Shown: positions 1-9,513 of the stretch, piece after piece
How the letters are laid out: every line of letters begins with the position of its first letter
How positions within the stretch are numbered: the first letter of the stretch is position 1
From: Humidesulfovibrio sp.
GTDB lineage: Bacteria; Desulfobacterota; Desulfovibrionia; Desulfovibrionales; Desulfovibrionaceae
DNA: 64,000 bases
NCBI RefSeq assembly: GCF_031082295.1
Contig: NZ_JAVHLD010000012.1
Span: 1 to 64,000 of the forward strand
Reading direction: 5' to 3'
The notes under the pieces: generated by a model
The model's database searches: none
What the model was told of the DNA's origin: nothing
The model's input: the letters and a program-made list of their open reading frames with translations, nothing else
Position numbers and translations under genes: made by a program

Positions 1-1674
1 GCCAAAGCATACGCTTACATCCGCCTCTCCTCGCAAGCGCAAGCCGCTGGCGACGGCGAACGCCGGCAACGTGAATCCGCGCAGCAGTTCGCTGGTCGGC
101 ACGGGTACGAGGTTGTCGAGTACCTCCAGGACATCGGCAAGTCCGCGTTCCGCAGTTCGAATGCCTTACATGGCGAATTGGCCGAGTTCCTCAAGATAGC
201 GCAAAAAGGTACACTCGAGAAGGGAACGCTCCTGATTGTCGAGTCGGTGGACCGCCTGTCGCGAGACGAACTTCAACCCTCCATACGGCTTTTACTCAAC
301 ATTTTCGACTACGGCCTTTTGCTCGGCATCATCTCCGAGGACAAAATCTTCAGCGAAATCAACTTCGATGATTTCCTGCAACTGCTCAACGACATGGCGC
401 GCTCAAACAAAGAGAGCGCCATGAAGTCCGTGCGATCCCTCGAAAATTGGAAGACAAAGCGGGAGAAAGCCAAGAAGGGAATCCCTGTCACCAAACAATG
501 TCCTCACTGGATGAAAGTCAAAAACGGCAAGTTCAAACTGATCCCAGAGCGCGTCGAGATCGTCAAACGGATATTCGCCTGGTACTCGGAGGGCAAGGGG
601 CAGGGCAAGATCGCCGACCTGCTGACGGAGAATGGCGTGCAGGCTTGGAACAAACGCAAGCCCGTCTGGCACCAAAGCTACATCTTCAAGTTGCTTCATA
701 ACCGGGCTGTCATCGGCGAATACCTGCCAGAAGTGACCACAGCGGGCGGCAGGAAAATCATCGAGACCATCGAAGGCTACTACCCGGCTATAATCGATAG
801 GGACACATTCGAGTTGATCCAGGATAAAACCCGGCTTCGGCGTGAGAACCACGCCGGGAGGAAGGGCAAAAAATACGCGAATCTTTTCCAAGGCATGACC
901 CGCTGCGATGTATGCGGCGCGCGGATGCGCTACCTTAACCATACAAAAGATGTCACGAGGAAAAGTGGTCTGCGGCCTTGGGCGCTCTATCTGGCATGTT
1001 CAAGCTCTCTCAAGAAAAGCGGGTGCAAGAACAAACAGTACTACAGCTACTTGCATATGGAAAACTTCATCCTGTCCGGCGTCCTGTCCGATATCGACAT
1101 CATCGAGGCCGCCGGTATGCACGTCGAGCGGCAGAAGCAGAATCAGGAGCGTGTGAAGGAGCTGGACGCGCAACTCATCCGGGTAAAGGCCACCATTGGC
1201 CGCATGATCGAGACGCTGGAGAACGACGACCTCGGGGACATGCCCGAACTCATTCAGGCGCTAGCGAAGAACCGCAAGCGGCGCACAGAACTGGAGGAGC
1301 AGCTTGCTACGGCGCGCGCCGGCGCGGCTGAAGCTCGCGAGGCCGCCCAATCTGCGGGTCTGTTCCGCCTCGTGGAGGAAGCCTACGGCGAGAAGATGCC
1401 AGAAGGCATCGACATGTCTGAAGAGGCCGTCTACTCCCGCCGGGTGCGCATCGCGGATCAGATGCGCGCTGTCATCGAGGATGTCGCGTTCCACGAGGAT
1501 CACATGATCCGCATCAAGACACGCGCTGGCACCGTCTACGAGCTTGTGAAGCGCGAATGGACGCGCATCGAAAAGAGCAAGCGCATCGGCGCCAAGGGCA
1601 CCCTGACTGCCCGAAGCTACGCAGGCCGCGCCGTCATGCAGCTTGGAACCGAAGATGACGAGGAGGCAAAGTAG
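1..1674 (+). CDS. Large serine recombinase (site-specific integrase), 5' end outside window
   Basis: The reading frame is open from base 1, so the start lies just outside the window. Seen: an N-terminal resolvase-like domain beginning AYIRLSS, where the first Ser after RL is the likely nucleophile; the DRLSRD motif typical of serine recombinases; a central recombinase domain (about residues 150-260); a zinc-ribbon module (CDVCGARM, then two further Cys, about residues 300-345); and a C-terminal coiled coil rich in Leu/Glu. This is the layout of large serine integrases of phages and integrative elements. Such enzymes cut and rejoin two att sites through a phosphoserine intermediate. It sits at the edge of an accessory block (to about 7560) and is its probable integrase. 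No att core was identified. Confidence 0.93.
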   Translation, partial: AKAYAYIRLSSQAQAAGDGERRQRESAQQFAGRHGYEVVEYLQDIGKSAFRSSNALHGELAEFLKIAQKGTLEKGTLLIVESVDRLSRDELQPSIRLLLNIFDYGLLLGIISEDKIFSEINFDDFLQLLNDMARSNKESAMKSVRSLENWKTKREKAKKGIPVTKQCPHWMKVKNGKFKLIPERVEIVKRIFAWYSEGKGQGKIADLLTENGVQAWNKRKPVWHQSYIFKLLHNRAVIGEYLPEVTTAGGRKIIETIEGYYPAIIDRDTFELIQDKTRLRRENHAGRKGKKYANLFQGMTRCDVCGARMRYLNHTKDVTRKSGLRPWALYLACSSSLKKSGCKNKQYYSYLHMENFILSGVLSDIDIIEAAGMHVERQKQNQERVKELDAQLIRVKATIGRMIETLENDDLGDMPELIQALAKNRKRRTELEEQLATARAGAAEAREAAQSAGLFRLVEEAYGEKMPEGIDMSEEAVYSRRVRIADQMRAVIEDVAFHEDHMIRIKTRAGTVYELVKREWTRIEKSKRIGAKGTLTARSYAGRAVMQLGTEDDEEAK

Positions 1675-3319: not shown

Positions 3320-3766
3320 ATGGACGGAATCTTCATCTGCACAGCGCTGCTCATCGCCATCGTGCTCCTGCGTCAGCGTGGGCAGGAGTCGGACGCGTTA
3401 GCTTACGCGCCGGTTCGCGTGGCCCCGGACGACACCGCCACCGCTGCTGTCATCTGCGGCAGCGGCCTCATGACGCATGAGGGCTCGCTCCTCTTCAGCG
3501 ACGACGACTGGCCGACAAACAGCGCGACGGACGACAGCACCATATCCTTCGGCTACGAGTCGGATACGAGCCGATGGACTGACCCGACGTATGCGTACGA
3601 GCTGGATAATATCTATCACGGTACGCTCGTTGACCCGACGTACCATGACGACAGCTTCACCAACTCATCCACCTTTGACGACTCGTTCTCATCGAGTAGC
3701 TTCGATGACAGTTGTTCAAGTAGCAGCTTCGACGATTCCTTCTCATCTAGCAGCTTCGACGACTAG
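3320..3766 (+). CDS. Small membrane-anchored protein with C-terminal Ser/Asp repeats, 148 aa
   Basis: An AAGGAG Shine-Dalgarno precedes the ATG. Residues 3-17 (IFICTALLIAIVLL) form one hydrophobic segment, probably a membrane anchor or uncleaved signal. The middle is acidic (SDDDWPTNS and similar). The last 40 residues are imperfect nine-residue repeats of the type FDDSFSSSS, three copies plus a partial, with one Phe-to-Cys change (FDDSCSSSS). The tail is low-complexity, polar and acidic, so it is probably disordered and exposed. A strong hairpin follows at 3805. I do not know the function; a surface or regulatory role in the mobile element is only inference. Confidence 0.75.
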   Translation: MDGIFICTALLIAIVLLRQRGQESDALAYAPVRVAPDDTATAAVICGSGLMTHEGSLLFSDDDWPTNSATDDSTISFGYESDTSRWTDPTYAYELDNIYHGTLVDPTYHDDSFTNSSTFDDSFSSSSFDDSCSSSSFDDSFSSSSFDD

Positions 3767-3884: not shown

Positions 3885-4600
3885 GGACGCATTTCCTCGT
3901 CCCGTCTGCCCTTCGCTTACAGCTCGGTAGCCAACCGATACCTGCCACGGATTGTTTGTCCGTGGTCGGGCGCAGACGTTGCCTTTGCAGGGGGTTACTA
4001 TGAGACCTCTGTGTCCTGCACGCCGAATCGGCGTACAGGGTACATCCTCGATTCCATTGAAACGGCACTTTCCAAGCCAGTTGATAGCCAGCTAGTATCT
4101 TGTCAGTACGCCGCCGTGGGCTTTTACCCCACATGCCGATATCAACCGCCTTAGGCGCTATCTGTGCTCATGATTTCACCGCCAGGGCATTCTTCCTGGC
4201 ATCTGCTTCTTTCGGCCCCCGAGGTGTCACAGCGGGGCGGTACTCCAAGGCTAGTACATGAGTTTTATAGCGATAGTTCCTCTCGTCGCCGTAGCGGTGC
4301 GGGTCGGGCTTTCGCCCTTTAGCATGGCTGCTCTAGCCGCATCGTGCTTATTTCCGGTTGCCAGCCGGTTTCGTCACGCGCAGCCGCCATGCCCCTTCCA
4401 CGTCACGATCCAAGCCCGTGAGGGCGTAGGTGTCGTCCCGTGACCTGGGTTTCCCAGGTTTGCAGCATTCAACGTATCCAAGCGCACCAACTCGTTGATA
4501 GCCATGATCTCAACGACACTTCACACCTTCTGCTAACGCAAAAGTAGCTTGTGCCGCTGGATCCCGAACCGTACAGGCGCGTTTCCGTCGCATACGGCTC
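3885..4600 (-). ncRNA. Candidate circularly permuted group II intron RNA
   Basis: Read on the minus strand, the order is: domain V (4600-4566), domain VI (4559-4511), a 19-nt spacer (4506-4488), then a GTGCGC start at 4487, the 5' consensus of group II introns. A structured region of about 600 nt follows. It contains a GUUGAUA/UAUCAAC helix (4146-4140 with 4086-4080), an 11-bp hairpin (4039-4015), a multi-hairpin domain closed by a GTCTGC-type stem (3977-3904) and a short GGACG/CGTCC hairpin (3902-3885). No second domain V follows. Canonical introns end, not begin, with domains V-VI, so the order fits a circularly permuted intron, a class known from published work. A further hairpin with a perfect 9-bp outer stem precedes domain V (4674-4611). 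No reverse transcriptase is encoded. Boundaries are approximate. Alternatives are adjoining fragments of two ordinary introns. Confidence 0.58.
4566..4600 (-). ncRNA. Group II intron domain V motif
   Basis: On the minus strand the motif starts GAGCCGTA and ends TACGGTTC, which pair over 8 bp and include the conserved AGC triad. The upper stem is GCG-A-CG / CG-CGC capped by a GAAA tetraloop, and a small bulge lies on the 3' side. This matches the hallmark domain V fold, though it is 35 nt rather than the usual 34. It is followed by a domain VI-like hairpin whose outer stem CAGCGGCAC/GTGTCGTTG is 9 bp including wobbles. Confidence 0.72.
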
Positions 4601-5137: not shown

Positions 5138-5377
5138 ATGGCCATTATCAAAAAGGCGACGAAGTGCGACAAGCAGCTCAACATCAAGATTACCGTGCAG
5201 GTTCATGCCCGCTATGAAGCGGTCAAGAAGGCTTGCCTAGCGAAGAGCTGGGTGTTCACTCTCCAGCCGGACTTCGAGTCTTGGTTGAACACGCAGCTTG
5301 ACGGTGCGGAAAAGGAGCTTGCCGCTCACGACAAGACGTTGGCGAAGCAGGCGACCGAGACCGGTGTCGGCGCGTAG
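5138..5377 (+). CDS. Small hypothetical protein, 79 aa, first gene of island operon
   Basis: The start is set at the ATG following CGGAGGTATAC, a good Shine-Dalgarno, rather than at an upstream in-frame ATG (5057) without one. The product begins MAIIKKATKCDKQLNIKI and is Lys/Ala-rich and soluble, with a beta-like start followed by helices. I do not recognise it. The next gene starts 2 bases after its stop codon, so the two are probably cotranslated. Confidence 0.65.
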   Translation: MAIIKKATKCDKQLNIKITVQVHARYEAVKKACLAKSWVFTLQPDFESWLNTQLDGAEKELAAHDKTLAKQATETGVGA

Positions 5378-5379
5378 CC

Positions 5380-6435
5380 GTGGGCATCATAAAGGAATAC
5401 CAGCGGCCCGGGCCGGGGGACGTTGCGCTCGTGCGCCGAGCGCAACGCTCCCTTGCCTTGGCTGGCCGACATCACGATCTGATGCGGTACCTCGAGCGTG
5501 ACAGTTTCCAGAATGTCGCCGGGGCGCTTGTCGAGCGCTACATGCCGCGCTCCAGCCGGAAGCAGCTTGAGATAGCCGAGGTCTTCGGTGAGCTCTACGC
5601 TGTCTGGTTCGTGCTCGCGCCCATCGCCAATGGCGCACAAGGCTACTGGCGCCCGTGGTGGTGCCCCGGCGTCTTCACAAGCTGGATGCGTATCGAAGCG
5701 AATCGCTTTCACCGTTGCTGGCTCGGGCATGTCGGCTACGACTGGACAACCACGCAGATAGCGCCCGGTGCGGCGGCGGCACGAATCACCGACGAGGCGT
5801 TCATCGCCCACGTGCAGTGTCTGCTTGACCATGCGGCCGGGGGTACGCTGCGCGCCAGCTTCGCCCGGTACGTCCTGGGCAGCCTTGCTTGGCGGCATCT
5901 GGCAGAGACTACTCTGTCCGTAGCCCGCGAGTACCGTGCGGGCATGATGTGGAACGAAGACGGCTGTTGGCTCATGTCGGCGAAGCCGTTCGAAGGTGTC
6001 GGCGCGGTGTGGACCGACCTGCGCGAGCAGCCGGCGAAGGTTCTCGCTTGGGAAGCGCACGTAGCCAAAGGCTTACTGTACGCTAGGATGCATGACGTGT
6101 CCGTGCAGCGCCTGAAAGAGAGCGTGCGCACGGCGCTGGCCTCCGACGCCTCTCCCGAGCACAAACTCCGGCGCATCAACGCCGCGGCGCGTAGCTTTTA
6201 CCACTTCGCGCGCTACGCGTTTGACGCTCGGCAACAAGCGCAAGAGCTTGAGGCCTGGATATGGCGGCGCGTGAACCGGCACATCGTTCAGACTACGCCG
6301 CCGCTTACCGGCCGGTACTTCAATCTGCGCCACGTCCCCTGGGACACGCGGCTGCACTTCGAAAGGAAGTCGTATCTGCTGGATAAAGACGTGTCCGAAG
6401 AGCAGTGGATCAACCTGTGGAACCCGCACCGGTAG
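5380..6435 (+). CDS. Hypothetical island protein, 351 aa
   Basis: It starts with GTG two bases after the previous stop; initiation is probably coupled, since no strong Shine-Dalgarno is visible. The protein is rich in Trp, Arg and Tyr, largely helical by composition, with no signal peptide, membrane segment or motif that I recognise. Codon use resembles the flanking island genes and is less GC3-biased than the host genes beyond 7560. It may be a replication, maturation or RNA-binding function of the element, but that is a guess from position only. Confidence 0.62.
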   Translation: MGIIKEYQRPGPGDVALVRRAQRSLALAGRHHDLMRYLERDSFQNVAGALVERYMPRSSRKQLEIAEVFGELYAVWFVLAPIANGAQGYWRPWWCPGVFTSWMRIEANRFHRCWLGHVGYDWTTTQIAPGAAAARITDEAFIAHVQCLLDHAAGGTLRASFARYVLGSLAWRHLAETTLSVAREYRAGMMWNEDGCWLMSAKPFEGVGAVWTDLREQPAKVLAWEAHVAKGLLYARMHDVSVQRLKESVRTALASDASPEHKLRRINAAARSFYHFARYAFDARQQAQELEAWIWRRVNRHIVQTTPPLTGRYFNLRHVPWDTRLHFERKSYLLDKDVSEEQWINLWNPHR

Positions 6436-6454: not shown

Positions 6455-6862
6455 ATGTCGCTCACGTACGACAAGGATGGCTTCAAGCTCTCCATCACCG
6501 CCGGTGTCGCAGACGAGGCGAAGGGCAAGCGACGCTGGACTAGGGTGGCAGCCAACTTCATGGGGTATTCATGCTCTGATCTGGAGAGCCTGGCCACGCT
6601 CAAGGCATGTCTCGACTGCTTCCGTCGGGGCCAGCTCGCCCGTGGCAAGCCGCAGCCATGTCTGGGGACGGAAGCGGATGGCGTACTGTTCGCCGTTCGG
6701 CAAAAGGACAAAGTGCTGTACCTGCAGATGCAGCGCATGGTCGACGGGCGCATGACCGAGGAGACATATCTCGCGCAGCTCGACGCAGCCCGGCTTGAGA
6801 TAGCCGTCGGAAAAGCCTTTCAGGCCCTGTCGCCCGTAACCGTGTGGGGACCGGAGCCATAA
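6455..6862 (+). CDS. Hypothetical island protein, 135 aa
   Basis: The ATG lies 20 bases after the preceding stop, with GGAAGGTAGGAG upstream as ribosome-binding site. The small soluble protein begins MSLTYDKDGFKLSITAGV, alternating in a beta-strand-like way, and ends in a predicted helix (about residues 90-125). No recognised domain, signal or membrane segment. It is the third gene of the 5138-6862 operon. Function unknown. Confidence 0.62.
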   Translation: MSLTYDKDGFKLSITAGVADEAKGKRRWTRVAANFMGYSCSDLESLATLKACLDCFRRGQLARGKPQPCLGTEADGVLFAVRQKDKVLYLQMQRMVDGRMTEETYLAQLDAARLEIAVGKAFQALSPVTVWGPEP

Positions 6863-7563: not shown

Positions 7564-9513
7564 CTAGGCAGCTGAGCGCAACACAGCGGGCTTGAGCGAA
7601 GCCACATCCTTGTCGCCGCGGGCATGCTCACCCGGATCTTCGCCCGCATCCGCGCGGATCTCGTCCACGATGCCCGCGAGGTTGCGCGCCTGCTGGGCCA
7701 GCTCGCTCACGGCCCGGGCGCTCTCCTCCATGACCTGGCTCGTCTCCTCGCTGATGCGCCGCATGTCCTCCATGGACTGGCTCACCTCGCGCCCGGACTG
7801 GGCCTGCTCCCGCGCGGACTGGGCGATGCCGCGCACCTCCCCGGCGGCGCGGGAGGCCAGCTCCACGATCTCCGCCAGGGCGTAGACGGGAATCTTCAGG
7901 ATGCGGGCGATGGCCAGCCCGGCCAGGCCCATGGGGCCCGGCGTGGCCGTGAGGATGCAGTCGAAGTCCTGCTCGAAGCACCAGGCCAGCATCTTCAGGA
8001 ACGGCGGATAGGCCAGGGTCAGCTCCGGATATTCCGGCATGGCGAAGGAGCCCACGGGCTCGAAGTTCTTGGCCCCCTCCATCGGCGCGCCCCTGGTGCA
8101 GGTCACGCAGGTCATGTCCTTGCCGTATTTTTTGGCCAGGGCGATCTGCTGCTGGATGGTCAGGGCCACCCCGTTGATCTCTGCGAAGGTGTCCGTAAAA
8201 TGCGCCACCCGCAGTTCGCCGCCGCTCCGATTCTGCCGACGCACGCCGAAGGTCTCCATGCACATGCCGGTGAAGCTGCGTTCCCTGGCGAACAGTTCGC
8301 TTGAGAGGAAATAGGGCGAGAGCAGCGCGTAAAGTGAGCCCGCCGAGGCCACGTCGTGGAACAGCTGAAAGATGTTGGCGCTGCGCACCGAGGCCAGCAT
8401 CTTGTCGGCGAAGCGCGACAGGAGCCGGTCCGAAACGCGCCGCACGAAGCGCCGCCACAATTCCTCGGGCGGCACGCTGCGGGTCACGCTGCCGCGCGCA
8501 GCGGCGGCCAGCTCCGGGTCGGCCTGGATGGTGCGCGTGGCCTCGGAGAGCAGCATGGCCTGGGGCGAATCCTTGTCGGCCAGGCGCTCGTACAGGGCGG
8601 TGCGCACCCGGTCCTTGAGGCGCTCCAGAGGTGTGGCGCGGACCTCGCGCCCGGCCCTGGCGGGGTCGAGCAGAATGTCCGCGAGGCGCATGCAGGCGTG
8701 GCTGCGGGGCAGCCGTCCGGCGCGGCTTTTGTAGAACTGGTAGGCGATGCCGTAAAGATTGTGGGCCATGGCCCAGGGCGTGGCCGTGCCGCCCAGCACC
8801 CGGCCCCGGCCTTCGCGGATGCCGTCAAGCAGGTTCGCCAGCGTGGCCGGGCCGTCGAACTCGGTGTGCCTGCGGGCGATGGACAGAGACGAATGGTCGT
8901 CGCTGCCGCCCACCAGGCTCTTGATCCAGGGCGCCGGACCAGAGGGCTCGATGCCATGCCTTTCGGCAAGACGCTCAATGTCCGCAGGCCGCAGCGCCTC
9001 CACCACCTGGCGCAGGAAGGCGTTCTGGGACTCGTCGCGCGAGCCGTTCAGCTCGAAGATGTTGAACAGCAGCAGGCACTGCTCGAAATGCGCCGGGGTC
9101 AGACGGTCATTGACCGCGAACAGAGGATGCGCCAGCACGTGCACGATGCCTTCCTCGCGCAGGTAGGGCACAAGGTCGAAGACGTTCTCGCGCAGGCGCT
9201 GGAACTCCGCGTGCTGGGCCTCGGTGATGTCGTAGGCCAGCACGTGCAGCTTGCAGCGGTCCTCGGGAAAGTATGTGGTGATCTCCTCGCTGACGAAGGC
9301 CCCTGGCAGGTGCGCGATCTCAAGCGAGCCGCTGATCGTGTTGTGGTCGGTTATGGTGACCATGCCCATGCCCCGGGCACGCGCGATCTCGTAGATGCGC
9401 ATGGGCTCGGTGAAGCTTTCCGGGCACCCCATGCGCTGCAGGATCCATTGGGAGGGACGCGTTGAAAACTTGGAGTGGACGTGCAGATCGATACGAAAGG
9501 CGTCTGGGATCAC
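7564..9513 (-). CDS. Chimera: PHP domain + truncated glycosyltransferase fused to chemotaxis-receptor tail
   Basis: Residues about 1-300 form a PHP-type metallophosphoesterase domain: DLHVHSKFS, TITDHNT, VLAHPLFA and GGSDDHSS carry the expected His/Asp metal ligands. Residues about 430-543 match the N-terminus of a family 4 glycosyltransferase (RVAHFTDTFAEINGVA). That domain stops abruptly after KIPVY. From about residue 544 (near base 7882) the protein continues as the helical C-terminal tail of a methyl-accepting chemotaxis protein (EIVELASRAAGEV, RRISEETSQVMEESA). The nucleotide-sugar-binding half of the glycosyltransferase is absent. The junction lies about 320 bases from the island edge, so a deletion linked to island insertion is likely. 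The PHP part may still be active; the transferase should not be. Confidence 0.8.
   Translation of the reverse strand: MIPDAFRIDLHVHSKFSTRPSQWILQRMGCPESFTEPMRIYEIARARGMGMVTITDHNTISGSLEIAHLPGAFVSEEITTYFPEDRCKLHVLAYDITEAQHAEFQRLRENVFDLVPYLREEGIVHVLAHPLFAVNDRLTPAHFEQCLLLFNIFELNGSRDESQNAFLRQVVEALRPADIERLAERHGIEPSGPAPWIKSLVGGSDDHSSLSIARRHTEFDGPATLANLLDGIREGRGRVLGGTATPWAMAHNLYGIAYQFYKSRAGRLPRSHACMRLADILLDPARAGREVRATPLERLKDRVRTALYERLADKDSPQAMLLSEATRTIQADPELAAAARGSVTRSVPPEELWRRFVRRVSDRLLSRFADKMLASVRSANIFQLFHDVASAGSLYALLSPYFLSSELFARERSFTGMCMETFGVRRQNRSGGELRVAHFTDTFAEINGVALTIQQQIALAKKYGKDMTCVTCTRGAPMEGAKNFEPVGSFAMPEYPELTLAYPPFLKMLAWCFEQDFDCILTATPGPMGLAGLAIARILKIPVYALAEIVELASRAAGEVRGIAQSAREQAQSGREVSQSMEDMRRISEETSQVMEESARAVSELAQQARNLAGIVDEIRADAGEDPGEHARGDKDVASLKPAVLRSAA

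Follow-up and report, generated by a model that had tools for sequence, protein, structure and literature searches.

A circularly permuted group II RNA beside a divergent maturase-like gene in a mobile island of Humidesulfovibrio

What does a group II RNA do when its domains V and VI (D5 and D6) stand before domain I (D1), and which protein might serve it? This question is raised by a window of 64,000 nucleotides from Humidesulfovibrio sp. (contig NZ_JAVHLD010000012.1, positions 1 to 64,000, to which all coordinates refer), in which a sequence-only reading had noticed such an RNA on the minus strand.

Architecture and conservation of the permuted RNA

The RNA had been placed at 3885-4600. A structured RNA is present there, but it proved to be longer, running on the minus strand from 4690 to 3804 in the order P2, D5, D6, linker, GUGCG, D1 onwards and terminator-like hairpin; DNA similarity with the other copies extended from ~4955 to beyond that hairpin. 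In the 14-RNA alignment and structure counts, the P2 stem (4675-4610) comprises two sub-hairpins whose loops are both UAGCCA (P2b loop, 4639-4634). D5 was found where it had been predicted, at 4600-4566, with the AGC triad, a GAAA loop and a two-nucleotide bulge (CU), and it was recognized in the alignment as well as by the Rfam model RF00029 (match at 4602-4504, 41.1 bits, where the gathering score is 40). D6, which carries the bulged A4510, was also present, but alignment and structure counts gave it an extent of 4563-4506 instead of 4559-4511. By the group II consensus, the 3' splice site is predicted to lie after 4504, with A4510 seven nucleotides away. The 5' splice-site motif GUGCG at 4487 was borne out by the alignment, but the 23-nt spacing proposed ahead of it gave way to a linker of 16 nt after the 3' splice site, and the circle drawn from 4507 to 4488 was corrected to 4503-4488; under group II chemistry, this linker would be the circular product.

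Nested helices occupy ~640 nt 3' of GUGCG. We assigned the name D1 to the segment 4482-4047 of the alignment and, by order, the names of a probable D2 (4039-4015), a probable D3 (4007-3871, holding a UGGCUA loop at 3933-3928) and a probable D4 (3867-3847). They are followed by the terminator-like hairpin GGGGGCC-GCAA-GGCCCCC (3824-3807) and a U run, together 3824-3803; a terminator scan in which five T were required did not flag this hairpin. The sequence-only reading had proposed a check with Rfam and had named the absence of D1-D4 hits as a result that would speak against a permuted intron. The D5 model matched, but the D1-D4 models (E up to 5) gave no match in 3885-4487. This null result does not discriminate, because the record with a published permuted RNA (pTT8, L004) likewise gave no Rfam match at gathering score.

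The order D5-D6-linker-D1 onwards was retained at 17 loci in 11 genomes, namely 15 loci in nine of 149 relatives' genomes, one in Syntrophaceae (L026) and one in a further family of the same phylum (G175); three more loci, on contigs as long as ones in G001, G005 and G006, were not added to this count. A near-identical island occurs in Humidesulfovibrio sp. (L023; L027 is 99.7% identical over 11.7 kb). The window's own genome gave three RF00029 matches, all at permuted-RNA loci with pairwise identities of 75-86%, and the genus gave 14 such matches in 8 of 15 genomes, every one at a permuted-RNA locus; no other group II D5 was found by RF00029 in these 15 genomes. RVT_1 was present in four of them, with no match in the window's own genome, and no active reverse transcriptase was found within or adjoining the permuted RNA, as had been claimed. 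Truncated copies were seen as well: L008:4045-4739 (own genome, contig C21) is a D1-D4-only copy that is 89% identical to the window RNA, lacks D5, D6 and GUGCG and lies ~3.5 kb from a complete cassette, and L026:1687-2086 is a second one.

The first RNA alignment held 16 of the 17 loci (G175 left out), alignment A1 13 of those 16 and alignment A8 14 of the 17, the near-duplicates L027, L031 and L035 being left out. A structure of 241 pairs was scored across 14 aligned RNAs, and 94.0% of its 3,296 cells were standard pairs, against 33-39% in controls with slid partners, an advantage that is inflated because 12 of the same 14 sequences had served to derive the structure. Changes on both sides were seen in 138 of the 241 pairs, and none of 500 shuffles reached the observed pairing and covariation values. 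All cells of the 14 D5 pairs were paired (100%), and D5 and D6 alone showed compensatory changes in 20 of 36 pairs. The AGC triad, the branch A and GUGCG were retained in 14/14 RNAs. A candidate EBS1, CACCU (near columns 720-724 of the 16-RNA alignment), looks invariant; it fits the linker end at ≥4 of 5 positions in 13/13 RNAs, and a second place fits too, with scarcely any covariation. Taken together, the comparative data confirm at the sequence level that the permuted group II RNA is a structured RNA conserved in this order, in agreement with the order that had been read from this one site.

Relation to the published circularly permuted class

As described in the parts of Roth et al. (2021, PMC8637638) drawn on here, circularly permuted (CP) group II ribozymes comprise about 290 sequences of unknown role and have the order D5-D6-D1-D2-D3-D4; five of them self-splice in vitro without protein, and the predicted circles of four tested RNAs measure 32-86 nt. 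The same parts of the paper give GGGCG and NU as splice motifs, a P2-D2 loop-loop pseudoknot as characteristic and acpG as a frequent neighbour gene, and state that intron-encoded protein ORFs never occur within or near CP ribozymes and that AcpG is without known relatives. The window RNA had been proposed as a new instance of such ribozymes; this stands, although the class itself was already published in 2021.

By its domain order, and with a putative P2 loop-loop contact, the window RNA belongs to the CP class. Shared with that class are D5-D6-linker-D1 onwards as a stand-alone gene, a bulged A in D6 and a mobile-DNA setting. The P2 hairpin, which precedes D5, has a loop that could pair with the loop of a hairpin further 3', a contact that may correspond to the published one. 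The P2 loop UAGCCA and the 3' hairpin UGGCUA allow 6/6 pairing in 12 of 14 RNAs. A hairpin search returned UUGCCA/UGGCAA in L099 and in L051, an RNA of the published type, and CCCCCA/UGGGGG in pTT8; these pairs are only suggestive, because the search lists other complementary loops too. In L038 the loop-loop pairing does not fit. Furthermore, the 3' partner loop sits in the segment that we assigned to D3, whereas the published contact is with D2.

Other features set the window RNA apart. Its 5' motif is GUGCG (14/14) where the published one is GGGCG, and the motif is GGGCGACC in L051, L054, L067 and pTT8; its 3' motif, AU or AC in window-type RNAs, matches NU just partly. The D5 bulge is CY here and UN there, and the triad A here can pair with U. 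The neighbour is AcpG there and a maturase-like protein here. In PMC8637638, as far as it was available, the splice motif is given as a consensus with no stated membership rule, so we filed the window RNA as a variant within the class. Given GUGCG here against GGGCGACC in the four RNAs above, window-type RNAs are treated as a variant of their own within that class. A short linker was considered as a special trait of the window type (14-21 nt in 16 RNAs, 23 in L099) and was dropped, as L051 and L054, published-type RNAs from the same bacterial family, have equally short linkers of ~14-16 nt.

The published-type GGGCG RNAs of that family (L051 and L067 in G045, L054 in G083) are each followed downstream by a same-strand gene matching the AcpG profile. 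The proteins beside published-type RNAs of the family matched AcpG with E 0.00043 and the 351-aa protein described below with E 0.18, which is no match. Kinship of AcpG with the 351-aa protein was considered and rejected, as their profiles gave no signal (E 0.24). The gene order can be compared with that of the acpG set of the Thermus plasmids pTB2, pTA14 and pWG13, which consists of a ribbon-helix-helix protein, AcpG and a protein of about 117 aa: window genes of 79, 351 and 135 aa fall in the corresponding order. The third proteins (about 117 aa and 135 aa) differ in having no profile similarity, no ribbon-helix-helix gene is listed at the acpG set of pTT8 and pTA16, and the CP RNA itself was inspected for pTT8 only. 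A ribbon-helix-helix identity for the 79-aa protein, considered by synteny with Thermus, was not confirmed.

A maturase-like neighbour in a mobile island

Divergent from the RNA, a conserved set of three genes is encoded on the plus strand: a 79-aa gene (5138-5377, with GGAGG 5 nt ahead of its ATG), a 351-aa gene with a GTG start (5380-6435) and a 135-aa gene (6455-6862). Homologues of the 351-aa gene were found at all 17 loci, more than for any other neighbour counted, and those of the 79-aa and 135-aa genes at 16 and 15 of the 17; the divergent placement of the 351-aa gene relative to the RNA was retained down to 22% identity. Comparisons with the window gave dN/dS values of 0.14-0.19 for the 351-aa gene (eight comparisons), 0.33-0.43 for the 79-aa gene (five) and 0.11-0.25 for the 135-aa gene (six). 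No family above cut-off was found for any of the three proteins in Pfam, PHROGs or NCBIfam. Protein alignments covered 15 of the 17 loci (A2, without L027 and L032), 14 (A3) and 10 (A7).

The fold of the 351-aa protein was predicted with AlphaFold2 (no templates, 15 sequences), and the best model had a pLDDT of 82.1 and a pTM of 0.78, the pLDDT ranging over 59.0-82.1 in five models and reaching 82.1 in one alone. All 11 Foldseek matches of this model with E ≤0.001 were group II intron or group-II-like reverse transcriptases (best E 2.0e-6, TMq 0.61). VIA-align gave Z scores of 18.4 (6me0_C, 295 residues, 4.3 A), 17.3 (8fli_B) and 16.2 (8t2r_D), and lower scores for a DGR reverse transcriptase (15.1), DRT9 (13.1), a retron reverse transcriptase (10.7) and a spliceosome chain taken for Prp8 (10.3). 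By profile comparison, with no structural input, hhalign aligned residues 219-311 with five canonical maturases over their thumb/X region (E 0.0023 at a probability of 12.6%). None of 200 column shuffles came up to the score of 32.8 (best 24.8); the reversed profile scored 20.7, and scores of 11-17 were obtained for eight further profile pairs. Pfam GIIM matched weakly in 4 of 15 family members, with a best E of 0.0045 where an irrelevant family got 0.0069 in a similar scan, and did not match in the L099, L038 and L026 members. Four PDB sequence matches to the 351-aa protein were judged irrelevant.

At the hairpin taken as catalytic, YADD is present in 5/5 canonical maturases and in 0/15 family members, the assignment of this hairpin being made from secondary structure and sequence and not from a residue-level structural alignment. 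The family members carry WNED, WHED, WSED, WNEN, WHEN, WNEQ, WWEN or WDEK there, L099 being gapped; one of the 15 (L099) has a [YFW]xDD elsewhere in the chain. The 351-aa protein is thus predicted to have the fold of a group II reverse transcriptase/maturase with a thumb/X domain and to lack the polymerase motif. It shares with LtrA and GsI-IIC RT the predicted fold over ~300 residues and the thumb/X profile, but it is encoded outside the RNA and divergently, has no YADD and is ~350 aa long; an endonuclease domain was not matched by Pfam. The 135-aa protein was modelled with a pLDDT of 86.3, from an alignment that took in a doubtful relative from L099, and gave Z scores of 9.0 with PURA, 8.0 with WHY2 and 7.3 with the trypanosome guide-RNA binding protein (MRP), with TMq <0.5 in Foldseek. 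It is predicted to be PUR/Whirly-like, with weaker support than for the 351-aa fold.

Linkage of RNA and protein was examined with an RNA search model (R1) whose source loci had mostly been identified via the 351-aa protein. Above 100 bits, R1 matched 15 loci in 149 genomes, and these were exactly the 15 loci of the protein matches, a co-occurrence that is partly by construction since R1 derives mostly from protein loci; G175 is the cleanest independent case. R1 matched at 24-45 bits in 11 further genomes of this search. Among the 11 weak loci inspected (ten alignments), L051, L054 and L067 were published-type CP RNAs, and the other eight (RF00029 53-60 bits) probably represent canonical introns. 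Across the phylum (395 genomes), R1 matches above 80 bits and the protein coincided at six loci in three genomes, including the distant G175; two of these genomes are also in the 149-genome set, and 30 further genomes had R1 matches below 50 bits. A match of profile A2 in G324 (E 4.3e-4; 395 genomes) fell in a frame with four stops and was taken as chance; it overlies an ORF resembling a glycosyltransferase by eye. No relatives of the 351-aa protein were found in the viral contigs or plasmids searched. At the level of sequence, these results demonstrate a permuted group II RNA together with a divergent maturase-family gene that lacks the polymerase motif.

As to the setting in a serine-integrase island, also claimed earlier, a large serine recombinase gene was found in the same island (in-window part 178-1674, plus strand; Pfam Recombinase and Zn_ribbon_recom). 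This gene begins left of the window, and a fuller copy that includes the N-terminal part is present in G001. Serine recombinase homologues were found at 4 of 17 loci; tyrosine integrases adjoin three other loci, and a KfrA-type plasmid protein one. Window DNA from 7881 on has matches that start at that position in eight other genomes of the genus, besides the near-identical G001. Neither a cleanly empty site nor the island's left edge was found. The ORF 7564-9513 fuses two unrelated pieces at 7881: the stretch 7628-7882 shares 94% identity with G000:C23:2249-2503 and resembles the end of a chemotaxis receptor by eye, and the sequence from 7881 onwards belongs to a gene present in the eight other genomes. 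A 305-aa protein (w305, 1851-2768), for which no family match was found, has homologues at 7 of 17 loci. A 148-aa ORF (w148, 3320-3766) ends in tandem acidic and serine repeats, and its homologues occur at 9 of 17 loci, near or beside the RNA 3' end. In G001, a terminase-like gene (L128:1236-2909; Terminase_3, E 9.4e-5, just under cut-off) adjoins the serine recombinase gene, to the left of the island.

Possible function of the cassette

Maturases hold intron domains together in normal group II introns. We consider it fairly likely that the cassette is a permuted RNA served in trans by a maturase relative without reverse transcriptase activity, which branches, releases a 16-nt circle and is kept as a branched ribonucleoprotein. 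The 351-aa protein would act in trans as a maturase, binding the RNA and keeping D5-D6 and D1-D4 together; A4510 would attack the 5' splice site ahead of 4487, and the freed 3' end at 4488 would then attack after 4504, so that the 16-nt circle is released. The remaining product would be an RNA branched into a T shape, with the protein still holding it, and we guess that the island retains this particle for trans activity on other nucleic acids. We infer the back-splicing chemistry from the conserved RNA sequence and by analogy with other CP RNAs, and the maturase role of the 351-aa protein is plausible from its predicted fold and linkage. Counting against a maturase, the CP RNAs assayed by Roth et al. 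needed no protein to react in vitro, and many CP RNAs have no maturase-like neighbour. In a literature search of titles and abstract openings, with subscription papers mostly and bioRxiv entirely outside it, no maturase-like protein was described with CP group II RNAs.

A wider proposal can be put forward only tentatively: the permuted ribozyme, the maturase relative without polymerase activity and the PUR/Whirly-like binder may form a trans-acting splicing ribonucleoprotein, an independent parallel to Prp8 that mobile islands keep for a reaction carried out in trans on RNA or DNA. In this proposal, AcpG would take the corresponding place beside the other CP RNAs. Prp8 is itself a maturase relative without reverse transcriptase activity, and its RT-like core matches the 351-aa model at lower Z than the group II enzymes do (10.3 for the spliceosome chain and 9.3 for 4i43_B, the chain named Prp8). 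The 351-aa protein differs from it in being bacterial and in being one short protein beside one RNA, and the likeness is one of predicted structure.

It is also conceivable, but rather unlikely, that the RNA is an ordinary CP group II RNA on which the 351-aa protein does not act, its gene being a passenger or having another island function. Such a reading would agree with the activity of other CP RNAs in vitro without protein, as given in the part of PMC8637638 drawn on, and with the recurrence of the recombinase, w305 and w148 beside some of the copies (4/17, 7/17 and 9/17 loci). The presence of the 351-aa gene at 17/17 loci, in a divergent place down to 22% identity, argues against a passenger, as does its membership in the one protein family for which action on group II RNAs is known.

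We give still less credence to a defence-like or regulatory protein of RT fold (DRT or retron-like), with a group II RNA that is a mere structural partner and has lost splicing. An RT fold does adjoin a structured RNA here, and the DRT9, DGR and retron enzymes do match the model, at lower Z. The polymerase motif is absent from the 351-aa protein, however, and PADLOC-DB gave no match for the 79-, 351- and 135-aa proteins in a search that matched a canonical maturase strongly; moreover, all 14 RNAs keep the AGC triad, the branch A and GUGCG, as expected under selected splicing chemistry. That pieces of two ordinary group II introns, lying side by side, were mistaken for one RNA, as the D1-D4 null result and the truncated D1-D4 copies might suggest, is highly improbable and was rejected because 17 loci share the arrangement with covariation along the whole RNA, the 15 genus genomes offering no further RF00029 match.

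For the in-trans maturase that we favour, the neighbour would provide a concrete protein for a ribozyme class of unknown role. If this is true, the cassette would be a bacterial instance of a step that is assumed to lie behind the spliceosome, in which the maturase fold is kept, the polymerase is lost and the RNA is served in trans.
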